From: Apostichopus japonicus
Taxonomy: Eukaryota > Echinodermata > Holothuroidea > Aspidochirotida > Stichopodidae
Length of the DNA: 64,000 nucleotides
Assembly (NCBI RefSeq): GCF_037975245.1
Contig: NC_092568.1
Span: forward strand, 10,379,501-10,443,500
Direction of reading: 5' to 3'
Below the pieces are notes generated by a model, which saw nothing but the letters and a program-made list of their open reading frames with translations, did no database searches and had not been told where the DNA came from. Below are positions 1,200 through 55,261 of this stretch, piece by piece. The translations under genes and the position numbers were made by a program. Within the stretch, counting starts at the first letter, position 1. Every line of letters starts with the position of its first letter.

Positions 1200-2759
1200 T
1201 TATTTACCCCTAAAGACACCTTTGGCAGCCTGGGATGCACGGTGCAATAGGGAGCTCCACCAGCTCTTCTCTTCTGGGGTTAGTTCGTCAAATCCCTCTG
1301 GTACTGCTTCCCCTTCCTCCGCCAAATTTCTCGCCATTAAGTTACTTGCCGGATGGTGAGCAATATGTTTAAAGGCCTTCCAGCTAAACCTCTCCTCTGG
1401 AGTTAACTCAGCCATTCTCTCATCAAAGATAGCGTCGTTCCCCGGGACTTCATTTTCAAAAGGAAGCGCTGAAATAAAAAAAATTCTGGTGTTTTGAGGA
1501 GTAATTTATTTATTTAACTATTTATTTTTATTTTTTATTATTAGTATTATTATTTATTTATTTAGTTTTAGTTTTTTTTTCTTCAAATGAACAATCAATT
1601 TCACACTTTAATACGAGTTTGCTATTACATTTGAGTCATAACAAAATAAAAGTTATTTTCAATAAAAAACATTACAAACAATCAAACAGAATTAATGGAA
1701 AAGAAATTCGCATATCCCGAAAGATTGTTTAAGCTGCGTGAAGTAACTTTACTTTGATTAATACTGTAATATCGATGTTGTGAATACTCTTGTACACTTA
1801 TTGTAAATTTACTGAAATTAATAGAAAAAAATCATCTACGACAGGAATTACACTTATGAAGTTGGCATTGTAAAAATGAAATGCGTCATATATAAAAATA
1901 AGAAAATTGTATGGGTGAGCTACATCTACACCGAAACCAAGAAATTACCTTTCTTTGAGAAGAAGAATCGCTTATTTAATAACATTTACATAGAATAATT
2001 GGGACCAAAGAGCGTCTTCATACCATGGGAAAAACCGACTTTACAAACTGTAGTTTTTGTGATATTCAGATTGAAAGGATAAAGCATCTGTTCTGGGAGT
2101 GTAGTGTTTCAAATCAAATGGAAATCGTAATGAGTTGGAAAATCAAGAACAGTGAAAACACGTCCAGCCTCCATCGGGATTCGAACCAGGGCCTCCCGCA
2201 TTGTACGCGGACACCCTAACCACTAGGCTATGGACGCTAATTGTATGTCCAGAGGTTCGAAACCGGTAAGGAAGGTCGTAATTCCACTGTTGGCGTTTGT
2301 CACCTGTATCGAACAATACTAGTTCTGTTATTGGTGACATGTTTTGCCTTACTCTAGAGATCAAACATGATGCTAACCAACTCGAAATCATTTGTGATTT
2401 CGAAAGCCGTATCTCGAAAGAGATACTTTGAACAGACTTTATGTTAATGAATGGAGGTAAACGACAAAGTCAAATGAATATATATAATTGAAATCGTAAT
2501 GAGTTGGAAAATCAAGAACAGTGAAAACACTTCCAGCCTCCACCAGGATATATATAAATTTATATATATATATATATAAATACATAGATACAGACTTACA
2601 TAGCTTACAATTAATTTCAAATTCAAAGTCATTTCTATATGTGTTTATCGGTGCTCTTACTTTAGGCCTATGGAGAAGAAAACACATTTTAAAAGACTCA
2701 CCGAGGATTGCTACGGTACAAAAGATGAGTACCAAGGCAGAACACCGGATAACCGACAT
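1200..2759 (-). CDS. Secreted cationic amphipathic peptide precursor, two-exon gene (candidate antimicrobial or neuropeptide-like)
   Basis: I predict a 108-residue precursor from two exons: 2759-2702 and 1468-1200. Exon 1 starts MSVIRCSALVLIFCTVAIL, a typical signal peptide, and ends at a strong GTGAGT donor after phase 1. Exon 2 follows a T-rich tract ending TTTCAG; the phases match and make an Ala at the junction, giving an -ILA signal cleavage context. After an acidic pro-region (residues 21-46, ending ELTPEER) comes a His/Lys-rich segment starting FSWKAFKHIAHH. An acidic spacer then ends in ELTPEEK, and the C-terminal peptide starts SWWSSLLHRASQAAKG and ends RGK before the stop. The last peptide has Lys/Arg/His but no Asp/Glu, and its large residues recur every 3-4 positions, as in an amphipathic helix. 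Terminal Gly-Lys could allow amidation. The duplicated acid-motif-plus-cationic-peptide layout is typical of processed host-defence peptides and some neuropeptides. No homolog was checked. The gene model is strong; the function is inferred. Confidence 0.72.
2121..2240 (-). repeat. tRNA-derived SINE, with tRNA-like head (SINE-1 copy a)
   Basis: Read on the minus strand, 2238-2160 resembles a tRNA: AGCCTAGTGGTTAGGGTGTC matches a box A region and GGTTCGAATCCC is a box B/T-loop. The 5' and 3' acceptor ends pair poorly, so it is not a functional tRNA. The tail at 2160-2121 recurs at 2545-2490. The element lies in the single intron of the secreted peptide gene. Confidence 0.7.
2490..2549 (-). repeat. 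5'-truncated SINE-1 copy b
   Basis: About 55 bases match the tail of the SINE at 2121-2185 almost perfectly, including GTAATGAGTTGGAAAATCAA and CAGTGAAAACAC. The match stops where the tRNA head should begin and is replaced by a TA-rich simple repeat. Confidence 0.75.
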
Positions 2760-2856: not shown

Positions 2857-2865
2857 TCTTTTATG
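2857..2865 (-). promoter_or_regulatory. Candidate TATA-like box of the secreted peptide gene
   Basis: On the minus strand the sequence CATAAAAGA lies about 100 bases upstream of the start codon at 2759. That would place transcription start near 2830 and give a short 5' leader. This is position and composition only. Confidence 0.25.
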
Positions 2866-22473: not shown

Positions 22474-23376
22474 TCAGTATCCCTTGGTTGGTTTCTTCCA
22501 ATGAATTCCATCGGATGGAAGCTGCAGGGGTAACGGCAAGAAGAACGGCAAGATCCAAAATCTCCCAAAGACTTCCGATAGATTCCGGAAGACACCCTGG
22601 TCGTACGTAATCACATCACTATCAGCCTCGTGGGAAGTCTGTCCTTTCAATATGTGGATGAAGTGATATGCAAATTGGGAGGCGGATCCTAAACAGAGCA
22701 TCATATCGACGTACAGAAGAGTGACCAGCCCGAAGACGCTGCTCTTCAGGCCACCTGTGATCCACTGGAAGATGGTCACAGGGTATAAATATGACAGACC
22801 TTCATGAGACAAAACTGCACCGTGTGATTCACTGAGATACATCCACGTAAACAGAGCTATGCAAAATAATCCCACCGAGCAGTAAAACGTGAAGACTAGA
22901 AAGAAACGTAGGTTTCGGTGTCCCAGGCAGACGCCTACGACGAAACAGTGTGCATGTCTCTTGAGGATGCAACGTTTACACACGGGACAATGGTGGGCCC
23001 TGGGCGGGTAATAATGCTGACAGGGTACGCAGTATTCCCAATGTTTACTTCCGTTTGTCGGCGGCAATAGCTTCGACTGTGACGAGAAACTCTTCTCCGA
23101 CTCAAAGTAAGAGTTATTGTAGAGACAGAGGAAGTAATTGGAGAACATTTCAAGGATGATATAGCACATTAGACCGAGTGTGAAGTGCATCATGAATGCA
23201 TCGCTCTGAAATCCAGGGATGATGACAAAAAATAGCACCAGTGCCAGTAGAATAGTCATGAACCATAAATACACTGTTCCACTGATGTTTGCGATACACA
23301 TGCAGTTATACTGACTTGGCAGTATGTGTTTGATGGATTGGCAAACATACTTGACGAGAGCTTTCAGCACCATCAT
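22474..23376 (-). CDS. ZDHHC24-like palmitoyltransferase with a degenerate HAHC motif
   Basis: One exon encodes 300 residues; the family's usual length is about 280-300, so it appears complete. Hydrophobic helices lie near 34-54, 61-86, 157-182 and 198-227, flanking a cytosolic cysteine-rich domain at about 113-155. Zinc ligand positions look intact (C116, C119, C130, C133, C136, H129, H143, C150). The catalytic motif aligns to residues 141-144 and reads His-Ala-His-Cys where the family has Asp-His-His-Cys. The acyl-accepting Cys144 is kept, but the Asp and the first His of the catalytic triad are replaced. Family members transfer palmitate to cysteines of membrane proteins at Golgi or plasma membranes. 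The C-terminal SDGIHW block is ZDHHC24-like. This copy may be a weak enzyme, use another acyl route, or be a pseudoenzyme. Confidence 0.88.
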   Translation of the reverse strand: MMVLKALVKYVCQSIKHILPSQYNCMCIANISGTVYLWFMTILLALVLFFVIIPGFQSDAFMMHFTLGLMCYIILEMFSNYFLCLYNNSYFESEKSFSSQSKLLPPTNGSKHWEYCVPCQHYYPPRAHHCPVCKRCILKRHAHCFVVGVCLGHRNLRFFLVFTFYCSVGLFCIALFTWMYLSESHGAVLSHEGLSYLYPVTIFQWITGGLKSSVFGLVTLLYVDMMLCLGSASQFAYHFIHILKGQTSHEADSDVITYDQGVFRNLSEVFGRFWILPFFLPLPLQLPSDGIHWKKPTKGY

Positions 23377-23599
23377 GTCTGAAGTTGTAGAGCGTTACAC
23401 CCCTAGTGTGTACTAATTCTACCAGTGAAATAATTTATTGATGCAATTTGTACTTGCAGCTCCTTTGAATTGATGTCCTTGAAAGAATCTTCTTCCATGC
23501 CTTCACATTTTTCTGAAGGAAAAGGAGTACCAAAGATTAATGAAATACATTCACCATTGCAGGAAATATAAAGATAAGGCGTACAAGATTTCAAGTATT

Positions 23600-47717: not shown

Positions 47718-47802
47718 GGTATAACACTAGAAAGTTCTACTGGTCCTAATTTTGAAAGTTTCAACAGTAAAATGTAAATTACAAGTGACAAAAGTACATG
47801 AG

Positions 47803-47884
47803 CGACGAGGATGGGATTCGAACCCACGCGTGCAGAGCACAATGGATTAGCAGTCCATCGCCTTAACCACTCGGCCACCTCGTC
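47803..47884 (-). tRNA. tRNA-Ser(GCT)
   Basis: On the minus strand the 5' GACGAGG pairs with CCTCGTC at the 3' end. The D-arm GGCCGAGTGGTTAAGGC has the serine-type form, the anticodon stem-loop is GGACTGCTAATCC (anticodon GCT), a long variable arm follows, and the T-arm has GGTTCGAATCCC. All stems close and both internal promoter boxes are intact. It decodes AGC and AGU. Confidence 0.95.
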
Positions 47885-50081: not shown

Positions 50082-53000
50082 ATGCAGGAGACAAAAGTTT
50101 ACAGAGGACCGTACTTTGCACAAACAGCAGGTTGTACCTGCTGGAAAGATGTCAAACAAAGGCTTCTCTTCAGGTACTGTAATAGATATATTCAAATTGA
50201 AATAGGGTAGTTGTTGAGAATGTTATGTTTTTTTCTTATTTGTACCCAAGTGCTACTACAGATTCAAATCTAAATAAAATGAACTATGGATCTAAATTTA
50301 AGGATGGCTCTAAGTTTGAAAACATGTCTTACAGTATAGGAAATGAACACAAGCTTATGTACTTTATATAGCAAGTGCTTGTGTTTGCTTAAAATTCTTT
50401 TAAATTGAGAACGAGTACTTCCTTAGTATTCCTTTATATGGAATATTATATTATTTCATTAGCTAAGTCTGGCAGAAAGAATATATGAAATGAAATTTTA
50501 ATATGGAAATCAATCTGTCAAATATAATTTTTAACCCAAAAAATGCAGAGTATCTTTCATCTGTTAGAGCATTTCAAACAGTTACGCTGTACAGCTAGGT
50601 CAATTAAATCATCATGGTCGTTGATATTGAGGTCATTGTTTTAATTCTTCGGCAGGTATTCTTACCTGCTGACGAGGCATTCTGTCTTCTTCTGTATTGG
50701 TACCCTCTTCCTGGTATCCTGCTTCATCACTGTGTCCTTTGTCATGTTTGACCCGCCTGATTTTACAGATCCTATCGCGGTGAGTTCATTCAACATTACT
50801 TTGGTAAGATTGGAGAACAGCAAAAGCTGCTTATTTACTGTGTTGTCTTCCCCGGACTTCTTTCCCACCAAAATTATCCACAGCTTTGCTCACAAATTAT
50901 GTCCATATGAAAATTGGTCTCCTTTGTGCAGGATAGATGTGAAGAAAATGCAACATTTTGTTCACAGAAATGTATGCATTTTTGCCTTCGAAAATGCAGT
51001 GCCCTTAAATTGATGCCTTAAACTGTGACTATGTACAGAAATCAAGTTTGTTTGCCCTAAAGTACACTGCTACAGTACTCTGTAGTAATAACATATGCAT
51101 GAGATGCAACATGAGTTGTCTGGCAACTGTTTCTTTTCAGATTCTTCTCTCATACCTCACCCCATGTCCCCCACTCCCCCCTCCCCCACTCCCCCTGTTT
51201 GAATAATTTGACTTCCTCTAATGTTTTGGATTGTGATATTGTAGTCCCACTAGTGTGAGTCTTCAGTTACAGAGAAGGGTGGGTTTCGTTTTTGATAGCT
51301 CTCAAATAGAACGAATCTGATTAAAAGTCAAGCATTGCTGTTCATATTCTAGTATTTCCAACCTGTCACTCATTCCTTGCTTGAGGTACCCTACACTGGA
51401 GTATATGCCAGTTATAGGAAAAATTGAAGTATACATGCAGTGAAATCTGACACCCTGTTCCCCTAACCATTCTTTCCCTTCGTACTGATCGTATAAAAGC
51501 ATACTTATTTATGATGTCACATCATTGCTCATCTCAAATAGGGTTTTGAGCCCAGAGGAACTGAAATCAGTCAGAGATCGATAGCATGGGCTAACCTGAT
51601 GAAGTCTACAGGTAGCGACCTGCGACTGTCAACGTATCCAGTGAACTGGAACGAGAATGTCCCAGATGAATCGTCCAGCATCCAGTTCAGTGAAGGTGAA
51701 GACTCTTGGATGCCAGTAAATAGCACCCTCGATGAATCAGAGGAGAGCGTCTCGTCATCAGAGGAGGATGGAACCACAGAATCCAACAAACATGATATTT
51801 ATCTCTGTGGTAATCCTGGTGAGTGCTATCCATTTAAGCTTTATATGAAGATTTATCTGTCTGTCAACAACCTGTCTGTTTGTGTGTCTGGCTAAGTAGG
51901 AGACAGAGATGCCAGATTGTCATCAGATATTCTCCATGAAATGGACTGGAAATGTTGGAATGGTGTGAGAGGTAAAAGAAAATTGCCTACTGAAACAAAA
52001 AATTTTCAGTTTGAAATAAAATATTTTGCAGTCTGGGAAAGGGTTATCAAAATGTATGCATAAGCTGTAGGAAGGGAGCCAAATGATCTTATCATTAGAG
52101 CCAGGCCATTGTTGGTTGCTGGCCAGACGTACAGTAAGTTATCACCTGAGATTTTAAGATTTTTTTCAAATTGATTCCCCTTTCACTTCTCAGTTTGCTG
52201 TTTAGACTGAGTGAGTGAGATTGAGTTGCCAATGGCTAAATATCATACTCATTTTATCATAGTTGATTTGGAAATTTTTTTGTGATTATTAATTTCTTCT
52301 GCTAGTGTAACATGTTCTATCACTTTTTTTTCCTCATGTCTAGATGTTTCCTATGCCAGAATGGTCTTCAAGCATGCCAAAGGACGCAGCTTGTTCACAT
52401 TGGACTCCATCACCTCCATGTGCCATTTGGAATCTCAGCACTTTACCAGCCACGTAGCGTTCCTGCGATCTTGCTACACGGGCAACCTCACATGTTGTTC
52501 CAGCTGGAATCTCGGCGTCTATGTAGCTCTCCTCACAGGCCACCAATCCTGCGACAGTGTGACTGAGGAGAGTGTCGCTCACGTTCTCAACTTGATCATG
52601 AAATGTTCTCATTACTATCGTACCAAGGAACTCAAGCCGGACTGCGCTTCATTCGGTTGTGAGACCGTGCCGGAGGAGTGCGTGGCACACAATGCAGTAT
52701 TTAACATCCTTCATTTCCTGGTGGACGTCGATTTCATGAGCGTGGAGAATCCCAACAACGACCACGTCAGCTACGCCATGGCTGTTTTCCCGGTCTACGC
52801 GGGCGTAGACATAAAGAACATCTACGAAGACAACTTCAGGGACCGGACGGTGTCGGACGGCGTGACCACTGTGTCGGGGCTCTACTTCAACATCAAGGAA
52901 GATCTGTTCAGCGAATATCTGATGTTGGATATCGTGTACCCGAGTCTGGGGATATTCTCCATTGTGATCTTGATGTGGATTTACATCGGATCGTTCTTCA

Positions 53001-55261
53001 TCACCCTGATGGCCATCATCAACATCGCGATGTCCTTAACCATTGCTTACTTCCTGTACGTGGTGGTCCTCAGGATTCCTTTCTTCCCGTTCATGAACCT
53101 CACCAGTGTCATACTGCTGGTCGGCATTGGAGCCGACGACACCTTCGTGTTCTGCGACGTCTGGAAACAGGTTAGTCGAGACAGGACCAACGTCGCTCAG
53201 GTCATCCTGATGATGCAGACATTGAACCACGCAGCGCTGTCCATGTTCGTGACCAGCCTCACAACCGCTTCGGCGTTCTTCACGAACACCGTCAGCACGA
53301 TCACCTCCATCAAGTGCTTTGGAATATTCTCAGGGTTAGCTATTCTCTCAAATTTCATTCTCAGTATCACATGGTTGCCTGCCGTCATCGCTTTCCAAGA
53401 CACTTACCTGGGCGGGCTGGAAGACCACGGCGAGTCCACGCATGGCAGTGGCAGGAAGGCGAGGTACAAACAGGTATGGGGAATGATCAGAAAGCGAATC
53501 ACGGATTGGTCGAGGGTATTCTTCGAAAAGGTCCTGCCCTTCATAGTGATCCGTCTGCGATACGCCTGGTTAGTGCTGTGCACCTTACTGATGGTAGGAG
53601 GGTTTTGTACCATATTCGTTTATCCTAAGCTCCACCTTCCCAGCGTTCCACATTTTCAACTCTTTCAATCTTCTCATCCTTTCGAACAGTATGACTTTGT
53701 CTATAGAAAACTGTTCTGGTTCGAAAAATCTCAGAACGGGGCAGAGTATTCCAATCTGCCGATCATAGTCGTCTGGGGCGTGAAGGAAAAGGACACGGGT
53801 AACCGACTCGACCCAGACAGCAAGGGCTCCTTGGTCCTCGATGGAAATCTCGATGTTAGTCATCCGGATTCTCAAGCCTGGCTCTTGCAGTTTTGCCAGA
53901 GATTACGAAACCAAACATTCCTCAAACCCCCCGACGGCTGGCAGCTGGAAAACTGTTTCATCGAGTCGCTGAAGTACTGGATGGAGTTTAGAGACTGCGA
54001 CGATGTCAACATGGCACCGTGCTGTAGAAATGCGACTTTCCCTTACGATGCCTCCCTCTTTCAGTACTGTCTGGAAATGGCTACCCATGACCTTCACCAA
54101 GAGTATCCGGCGTATTTCGATAAGAGGAAACCAGGTCCGAGGTTTTTAGCCGTCAATAATTCGATCTCGGCTCTCCTTGTGGAGTTTGACAGTAGGACTT
54201 CGTTTTCGTACGTCTACGAGGACATGAAAGAATTTGTGGATCACGTGGATGGGTGGATGAAGGACCAGTTAGAAACTGCTCCGGAGGGTATGTCGGGGGG
54301 TTGGTTCACGAGCGATCTGGATTTTTTCGACCTTCAGGATCACTTGGCCAGAGGTACACCTTTAGCTCTGGGATTATCAGTGATCATCGCGACCCTGGTA
54401 TTGCTGTTGACCACGGGTAACATAGTCATCAGCTGTTGCGCCATAGCCTCCATTGCCGGTACCTTGTTCGTCACCATCGGTACCCTGGTCCTCCTCGGCT
54501 GGCAGCTCAACATCATGGAATCGGTGATCCTGTCGGTGGCTGTGGGCCTCGCTATCGACTTCACCGTTCACTATGGTGTGGCATATTCGTTAGCGCCCGC
54601 CCAGGACCGCGAAGGCAGGGTGGTCTTCTCACTCTCCCGTATGGGATCTGCTATCGCCATGGCAGCTCTGACGACGTTTACTGCCGGGGTCCTCATGATG
54701 CCAGCTAATATTCTGTCATACACACAGATGGGGACTTTCCTGGTGCTCATCACCACCGTCAGTTGGACTTTCTCAACGTTCTTCTTCCATTCCATATGCC
54801 GGATCTGCGGACCGGAGGGTCATACGGGTAGCCTCTCTTGGCTGTGCGTGTGCTGCAGAAAAGATCACGTCCTTCTGTTGCAGAGGTACGGCAGTGGCGT
54901 GGCACCTGTCAATAGGTTTGAGGTGCACCACGTCTGCCAAGAGTATTACCAGTCATCTACCAGTTCAAGCGAGTCAGCGATGGAGGCCCCAATGCAGCCA
55001 TGCAACCTCGACCAAGACCAGGAAGTTGAAAGGACCCAACTGGAAGGCCATGAAGGGCACGGCCCCGAAGTGCAAGGCTCTGATACGCTGAGTACGTTAG
55101 TGTCACATCCACAAGAAAAAGCCGCCACCTACCAGAGTGCAGTGGAGTACCATAATGGTCATTATGTCAGCCATGTTGTACCTTCTTCGGGAGTCAATGG
55201 CAAACCTGCCCTGCTTCCAAACAAGGATCCAAGCATTCCAAATGTGTGGGTCAAAAGGTAA
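50082..55261 (+). CDS. DISP1: Dispatched homolog, Hedgehog-release transporter (RND/patched family), four coding exons
   Basis: Exons 50082-50173, 50656-50779, 51542-51818 and 52344-55261 join in phase to give 1136 residues. The ATG is the first after an in-frame stop, and an acceptor at 50009 suggests a spliced leader. Helix 1 lies near residues 41-62, followed by DFTDPI and GFEPRGTEISQR, a hallmark of Dispatched, then a cysteine-rich extracellular domain. The sterol-sensing domain spans about 365-510 with GIGADD in helix 4 (about 427-430). The second helix bundle carries GLAIDFTVHYG near 900. These GxxxD acids belong to the cation-coupling motif of the RND family. Dispatched sits in the plasma membrane of Hedgehog-producing cells and exports cholesterol-modified Hedgehog with Scube carriers. 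The length is close to fly Dispatched and shorter than the vertebrate protein. Most of the protein is in one 2.9-kb last exon of higher G+C than its surroundings. Confidence 0.95.

Follow-up and report, generated by a model that had tools for sequence, protein, structure and literature searches.

A Candidate Clustered and Modular Family of Host-Defence Peptide Precursors in a Sea Cucumber Genome

A gene in a 64,000-nucleotide stretch of the Apostichopus japonicus genome (C8:10379501-10443500, the whole of which is termed the window here) and its relatives on another contig probably belong to one modular family of host-defence peptide precursors with a clustered arrangement. Its sequence suggests that the window gene is a genuine gene of two exons and that it codes for a small precursor, which would be secreted and most likely release a short cationic defence peptide, its expression, its processing, and the killing of microbes being predicted. 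A single C-terminal amidated product is a well-supported prediction for the window gene, and a second released peptide is possible.

Two-exon structure and recurrence in paralogues

The exons 2759-2702 and 1468-1200 on the minus strand join in phase 1 to encode a secreted precursor of 108 residues, arranged as MSVIRCSALVLIFCTVAIL-A-LPFENEVPGNDAIFDERMAELTPEER-FSWKAFKHIAHHPASNLMAR-NLAEEGEAVPEGFDELTPEEK-SWWSSLLHRASQAAKGVFR-GK. The gene and its parts are as follows.

2860..2865, minus strand: CATAAA, a TATA-like box 106 nt upstream of the ATG
2702..2759, minus strand: exon 1, 58 nt, encoding the signal peptide MSVIRCSALVLIFCTVAIL and the first base of a split Ala codon; donor GTGAGT
1469..2701, minus strand: intron of 1233 nt in phase 1, GTGAGT...TTTATTTCAG; phase and split codon are shared by paralogues
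1200..1468, minus strand: exon 2, 88 codons plus stop, encoding the pro-part, spacers, and peptide segments
1389..1424, minus strand: acidic spacer 1, DERMAELTPEER, net charge -3, conserved in paralogues
1329..1388, minus strand: possible peptide 2, FSWKAFKHIAHHPASNLMAR, net charge +3 with 3 His, absent from several paralogues
1266..1328, minus strand: acidic spacer 2, NLAEEGEAVPEGFDELTPEEK, net charge -7, its last residue being the presumed cleavage residue
1203..1265, minus strand: C-terminal peptide (peptide 3), SWWSSLLHRASQAAKGVFR-GK, predicted product SWWSSLLHRASQAAKGVFR-amide

Exon 2 is coding over 1468..1203 and closes with the stop codon at 1202..1200 (minus strand). The split codon at the splice is Ala, with G before the junction and CG after it, and moving the donor by one base brings stops into the joined frame. 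The two-exon join with matching phase put forward in the original prediction proved right in its coordinates. The signal peptide was called from hydropathy together with conservation in the family. Acidic and cationic parts alternate along the precursor, as computed from its charges, and there are 0 Cys residues after the signal peptide. Both ELTPEER and ELTPEEK occur in the chain (6/7 residues identical, 16/21 bases common at the DNA level), and when the exon-2 protein was shuffled 1000 times, no shuffle produced a 7-residue internal match of this kind. The chain ends in FRGK, so that the repeat and the RGK end that had been read from the DNA are both present.

Searching the precursor against the whole genome (671,581,487 bases in 35 contigs) yielded exon-2 matches at 17 places on contig C6, between 15.21 and 15.38 Mb (E 7.5e-21 to 4.3e-5, 54-69% identity). 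The second exon is uninterrupted at 14 of the 17 places in this main cluster and broken at three (L010, L015, and L016). A second cluster, at C6 18.15-18.18 Mb, contains four weak matches to the window precursor (E 0.01 to 1.8), and a query taken from it retrieved eight second-exon places in the same cluster along with two signal exons, and it also reached the window gene (E 0.013). Six of these eight second exons were read, and one gene of the cluster, L022, is broken by a TGA. The tie between the second cluster and the window family is moderate (E 0.01; hhalign 92%, E 6e-7 over 47 columns). Three of its members (L019, L046, and L047) carry strongly cationic helices after RRR or RR and a terminal Gly. 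The window gene was the only copy on C8 in the genome search and stands nearest to the type-B copies, with a dS of 0.23 from L002 as opposed to 0.78-1.03 from L004, L008, and L009. By these matches, the window gene belongs, as a dispersed copy, to a clustered multigene family of about two dozen copies, some of them broken. All copy counts are lower bounds, as 35 kb of the 200-kb cluster sequence was unreadable.

The splice junction recurs with the exons. Signal exons with an ATG were read in ten genes, namely the window gene, L017, six type-A genes, and two second-cluster genes (L019 and L022), and all ten end in a GT donor in phase 1; the five that were measured are 58 or 61 nt long. An acceptor AG is present in 22/22 second exons in which the acceptor could be placed, and two second-cluster copies (L046 and L047) would have Val in place of Ala at the split codon. 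Neither an acceptor nor a signal exon was found for L021 and L023, which may therefore be truncated. Thus followed through paralogues of the same genome, the junction was free of the frame-breaking changes by which the original prediction had proposed to judge the join, L021 and L023 offering no junction to read. Exon 1 of the window gene shares 43/58 nt with its counterpart in L017, 39/58 with that in L009, and 32/58 with that in L019, with codon-shuffle P values of 0, 0, and 0.0007, respectively (20000 shuffles). Conservation also extends upstream, where window positions 2930-2681, comprising upstream DNA, exon 1, and the donor, align with L017 (E 7e-22; 66% identity in 260 columns). In an uncontrolled count, all ten genes examined have TATAAA, CATAAA, or TATATA as a TATA-like hexamer 94-106 nt upstream of the ATG, and simple patterns for kB-like sites found none upstream of the same ten genes (1000 nt scanned for eight genes, 434 nt for L019, and 430 nt for L022).

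Stop-free runs of at least 100 codons are not rare in the window (52/7108 runs over six frames), and the gene could in principle be two unrelated open frames paired by chance. Both exons, however, recur in paralogues in the same order, strand, and phase. With this recurrence and the 17 exon-2 matches elsewhere in the genome, chance pairing was set aside as very improbable.

Counting against the spliced reading, an ATG-bearing signal exon was found for only one (L017) of the eight uninterrupted type-B copies within readable sequence. Elsewhere, parts of type-B signal exons look broken near the start of the coding part. Only the 3′ part is seen at C6:15253377, 15225235, and 15275199, and only the 5′ part at C6:15219051, 15293329, and 15343560, while at a further place, 15245000, the signal exon runs to the edge of readable sequence.

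The intron of the window gene holds a repeat, and the window contains further features, listed below.

2117..2300, minus strand: repeat in the intron, with a tRNA-Cys-like head (2165-2238) recognized by ARAGORN
22474-23394, minus strand: open frame with a DHHC palmitoyltransferase domain
47802-47884, minus strand: tRNA-Ser (gct), ARAGORN prediction
52286-55261, plus strand: open frame of 991 codons that matches sterol-sensing, Patched, and MMPL domains

The intron repeat looks like a tRNA-derived SINE. A first look gave 1128 candidates, and the 39 further copies that were scored, spread over many contigs, are 93-95% identical to it; its tRNA-Cys-like head might inflate the tRNA counts of this genome. 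A 64-base stretch also occurs twice in the intron (2117-2180 and 2486-2549, 94% identity), and the first occurrence overlaps the tRNA-like repeat.

Modular organization and predicted peptides

In type-A and type-B relatives, exon 2 is arranged in the order peptide 1, acidic spacer 1, peptide 2, spacer 2, and peptide 3, with the spacers of the family exemplified by DERMAELTPEER and LAEEG..PEGxDELTPEE[K/R]. The peptide-1 stretch of these relatives follows RR (GGWFHRLFHHHHH..., GFLKHLFHRFH...), is absent from the window gene, and is mostly gone in L005 and L006. The type-A copy L009 (C6:15378752-15379243) has a very His-rich peptide-1 region (17 His) with NP repeats. Peptide 2, in turn, is missing in 6/8 uninterrupted type-B copies (L011, L012, L013, L014, L017, and L018). 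When L011 and L013 are compared with L002, their junction matches the remnant expected from a loss between two CCAGAGG direct repeats. These short forms, apparently without one peptide module lost at a direct repeat, make the evolution of the precursor directly readable.

K or R precedes peptide 3, and G, GK, or GR ends it before the stop, in 24/24 copies read, where the count takes in the window copy as well as broken copies through their last segments. In the second cluster, the preceding site is RR or RRR (6/6 copies read), and in the window gene and the 15-Mb copies it is a single K or R after EE with no classic dibasic site. The G, GK, and GR ends resemble those of amidated peptides, and amidation is predicted from them, in keeping with the possible C-terminal amidation suggested in the original prediction. 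The genome also has matches over the cut-off to PF03712, a copper monooxygenase domain of a type that peptide-amidating enzymes carry.

Two cationic amphipathic peptides, giving two products, had been expected from the window precursor. In charge and amphipathicity, the expectation is borne out for the C-terminal peptide, which in the window gene has 19 residues, a charge of +3, and a hydrophobic moment of 0.55 (shuffle P 0.0024), and which contains Trp and follows acidic parts, as had also been described. The first peptide fared less well, since FSWKAFKHIAHH is weakly amphipathic (P 0.10 for the 12-mer and 0.75 for the 20-residue form), the segment is missing in most uninterrupted type-B copies, and this region in the window copy has a 5-codon gap relative to its relatives. 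The computed masses are 2185.17 Da for SWWSSLLHRASQAAKGVFR-amide and 2348.21 Da for FSWKAFKHIAHHPASNLMAR. Across the family, amphipathicity reached P<0.05 in 5/15 segments with ends chosen by the analyst, namely peptide 3 of the window gene and the C-terminal peptides of L017, L008, L019, and L046. Charge varies as well: the two second-cluster C-terminal peptides tested carry +6 and +5 (amphipathic P 0.012 and 0.017), and some type-B C-terminal peptides are near neutral if His is uncharged (e.g., L002, -1 with 5 His). For antimicrobial activity, L019, L046, and L047 may be stronger candidates than the window gene.

An AlphaFold model on the exon-2 alignment places helices over both peptide regions at low confidence (mean pLDDT 57), which was too low for a fold search of the model. 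The low confidence of these helices, together with the His-rich stretches of type A, such as the 17 His in the peptide-1 region of L009, would suit an uncut secreted His-rich protein of metal-binding, adhesive, or structural function, in which acidic and basic stretches pair within one chain. Such a protein leaves unexplained the G, GK, or GR end in all copies read, the basic residue before the last segment, and the gap in rate between spacers and peptides, and the window gene itself has no His-rich character, making this an improbable account of the family.

Rates of change and the proposed mechanism

Between the window gene and L002, omega is 0.56 for the spacers, 0.85 for peptide 2, and 1.6 for peptide 3, and against three type-A copies it is 0.16-0.22 for the spacers and 0.45-0.87 for the two peptides together, all being estimates over short stretches with few sites in which omega >1 is no test of positive selection. 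The amino-acid differences follow the same pattern in two pairs, picked for their non-overlapping paths from 12 pairs computed: window-L002 differs at 7/33 spacer and 21/41 peptide residues (Fisher P 0.009) and L004-L009 at 0/33 and 14/37 (Fisher P 4e-5). Among the eight type-B copies, the last spacer (11 codons) shows 0 nucleotide differences, as against a pooled pN of 0.16 and pS of 0.19 in peptide 3. Peptide-3 omega is low in some pairs (0.34 for window-L004 and 0.25 for L002-L003), and, unlike peptide 3, peptide 1 is conserved at its start among type-B copies (pN/pS 0.32 over the first 10 codons). On these estimates, the acidic spacers are kept while peptides 2 and 3 change faster. A pattern general to host-defence precursors, in which a tandem multigene family keeps its pro-parts while the mature parts change quickly, is thus found for peptides 2 and 3 and not for the type-B peptide-1 start.

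Neuropeptide families usually conserve the mature peptide while their spacers drift. A secreted precursor that is cleaved at basic residues into amidated neuropeptides or peptide hormones acting on a receptor would likewise have a signal peptide, basic residues, and amidation-type ends, and the RR before peptide 1 in the C6 relatives, with the conserved start of that peptide within type B, is consistent with one. In peptides 2 and 3, however, the conservation is the opposite of the usual neuropeptide pattern, as the spacers are kept and the peptides drift, and this reading was set aside. The family also forms a tandem cluster with broken copies, which is unusual for hormones. Taken together, a neuropeptide or hormone precursor is quite improbable.

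Over the whole region, the omega of the window copy is 0.96 against L002 and 0.87 against L003, compared with 0.29-0.50 against three type-A copies; since the value is near 1 against L002, constraint on the window copy alone is weakly shown. The family could be one of host defence whose copy on C8, the window gene, is decaying or survives as an unexpressed relic, as its solitary position on that contig, the omega near 1 against its nearest relatives, the repeat inserted in its intron, and the three broken copies among 17 in the main cluster would suggest. Against this, the 88 codons of exon 2 are uninterrupted, the splice sites are intact, the upstream DNA and TATA-like box are kept, and the window copy, too, has spacers more conserved than its peptides (P 0.009). 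A relic is thus the unlikely reading of this copy, albeit one that carries some weight.

In the favoured account, that of a host-defence peptide precursor, exon 1 would supply the signal peptide and exon 2 the acidic spacers, alternating with Trp/His-containing, mostly cationic segments. First, the acidic spacers would hold the cationic segments inactive along the secretory path. A protease would then cleave after the basic residue or residues closing each spacer, and an amidating enzyme would convert the C-terminal G, GK, or GR to an amide. The freed peptide would presumably act on microbes in the body fluid or at epithelia. The window gene carries a secretion signal and an acidic pro-part before a cationic peptide, as host-defence precursors do. 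The likeness to host-defence peptides noted in the original prediction extends to layout and evolutionary pattern, and from these two an antimicrobial activity is predicted.

A broader proposal is favoured only slightly over its negation: that the genomes of sea cucumbers encode a clustered family, particular to these animals, of host-defence precursors built from modules. Conserved acidic cassettes would form a fixed scaffold between fast-evolving, short, amidated Trp/His peptides, whole peptide modules would be lost by recombination at repeated PEE codons, and the peptides would reach other chromosomes. No earlier antimicrobial peptide family of Holothuroidea would then have been known to be precursor-encoded.

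Comparison with known peptide families

The original prediction had recognized no named family, and the searches agree with it. In Pfam, neither the window precursor nor four relatives matched over the cut-off; the best hit of the window precursor, to LutB_C (19.5 bits, E 0.0013, cut-off 26.8 bits), was set aside as below its cut-off. No match over the cut-off was found in NCBIfam, which covers prokaryote families, for two proteins. In the PDB, phmmer returned 0 matches and the best hit of a profile search had E 0.62 (threshold E 0.001). Six sequence strings of the family had no occurrence in the literature searched, and no title naming the family of the window gene was among the matches listed for echinoderm and sea-cucumber antimicrobial peptides. 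In the main text of the Holothuria glaberrima genome preprint, the terms antimicrobial peptide, centrocin, and histidine-rich are all absent.

The clavanins and styelins of tunicates are rich in His and Phe and are amidated. They are linear helical peptides of marine invertebrates, to which the window peptides can be likened by description (PMC10608444, in its available part). The holothuroidins of Holothuria tubulosa are likewise short cationic peptides of a sea cucumber, again by description, with 12 and 14 residues, and no signal-peptide precursor is described for them in the available part of that source (PMC10608444). In the portion available, a review of January 2025 gives holothuroidins as the sole antimicrobial peptides characterised from sea cucumbers (PMC11767717). 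In Apostichopus japonicus itself, the PSP94-like family also forms a tandem gene cluster and is described, in the accessible part of the source, as having no homologues in other species (PMC5638244). Conserved cysteines define that family, however, whereas the window precursor is free of Cys beyond its signal peptide.

The closest likeness in layout is to the centrocins. SdCentrocins and EeCentrocins have a signal peptide of 20 amino acids, a pro-part, a cationic Trp-containing chain, an interchain spacer, and a second chain with an amidation signal, and their prepro and interchain regions are conserved while the mature chains are diverse, according to the available text (PMC4805251); their propeptides are described as short and anionic (PMC10608444, available part). 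As read from its sequence, the window precursor shares this layout, with a signal, an acidic pro-part, a cationic chain, a spacer, and a second chain with an amidation signal, and the relative rates of its spacers and peptides resemble, by description, those reported for centrocins (PMC4805251, available part). The heavy and light chains of centrocins are joined by one disulphide, in contrast to the window precursor, in which no Cys follows the signal peptide. What is new is the family, not the kind of precursor. A clustered family with synthesis-ready candidate peptides would give sea-cucumber immunity a concrete set of effectors, and such a peptide family would matter for disease in aquaculture. 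It would also allow a test of whether sea-urchin centrocins and these sea-cucumber precursors belong to one old echinoderm system.
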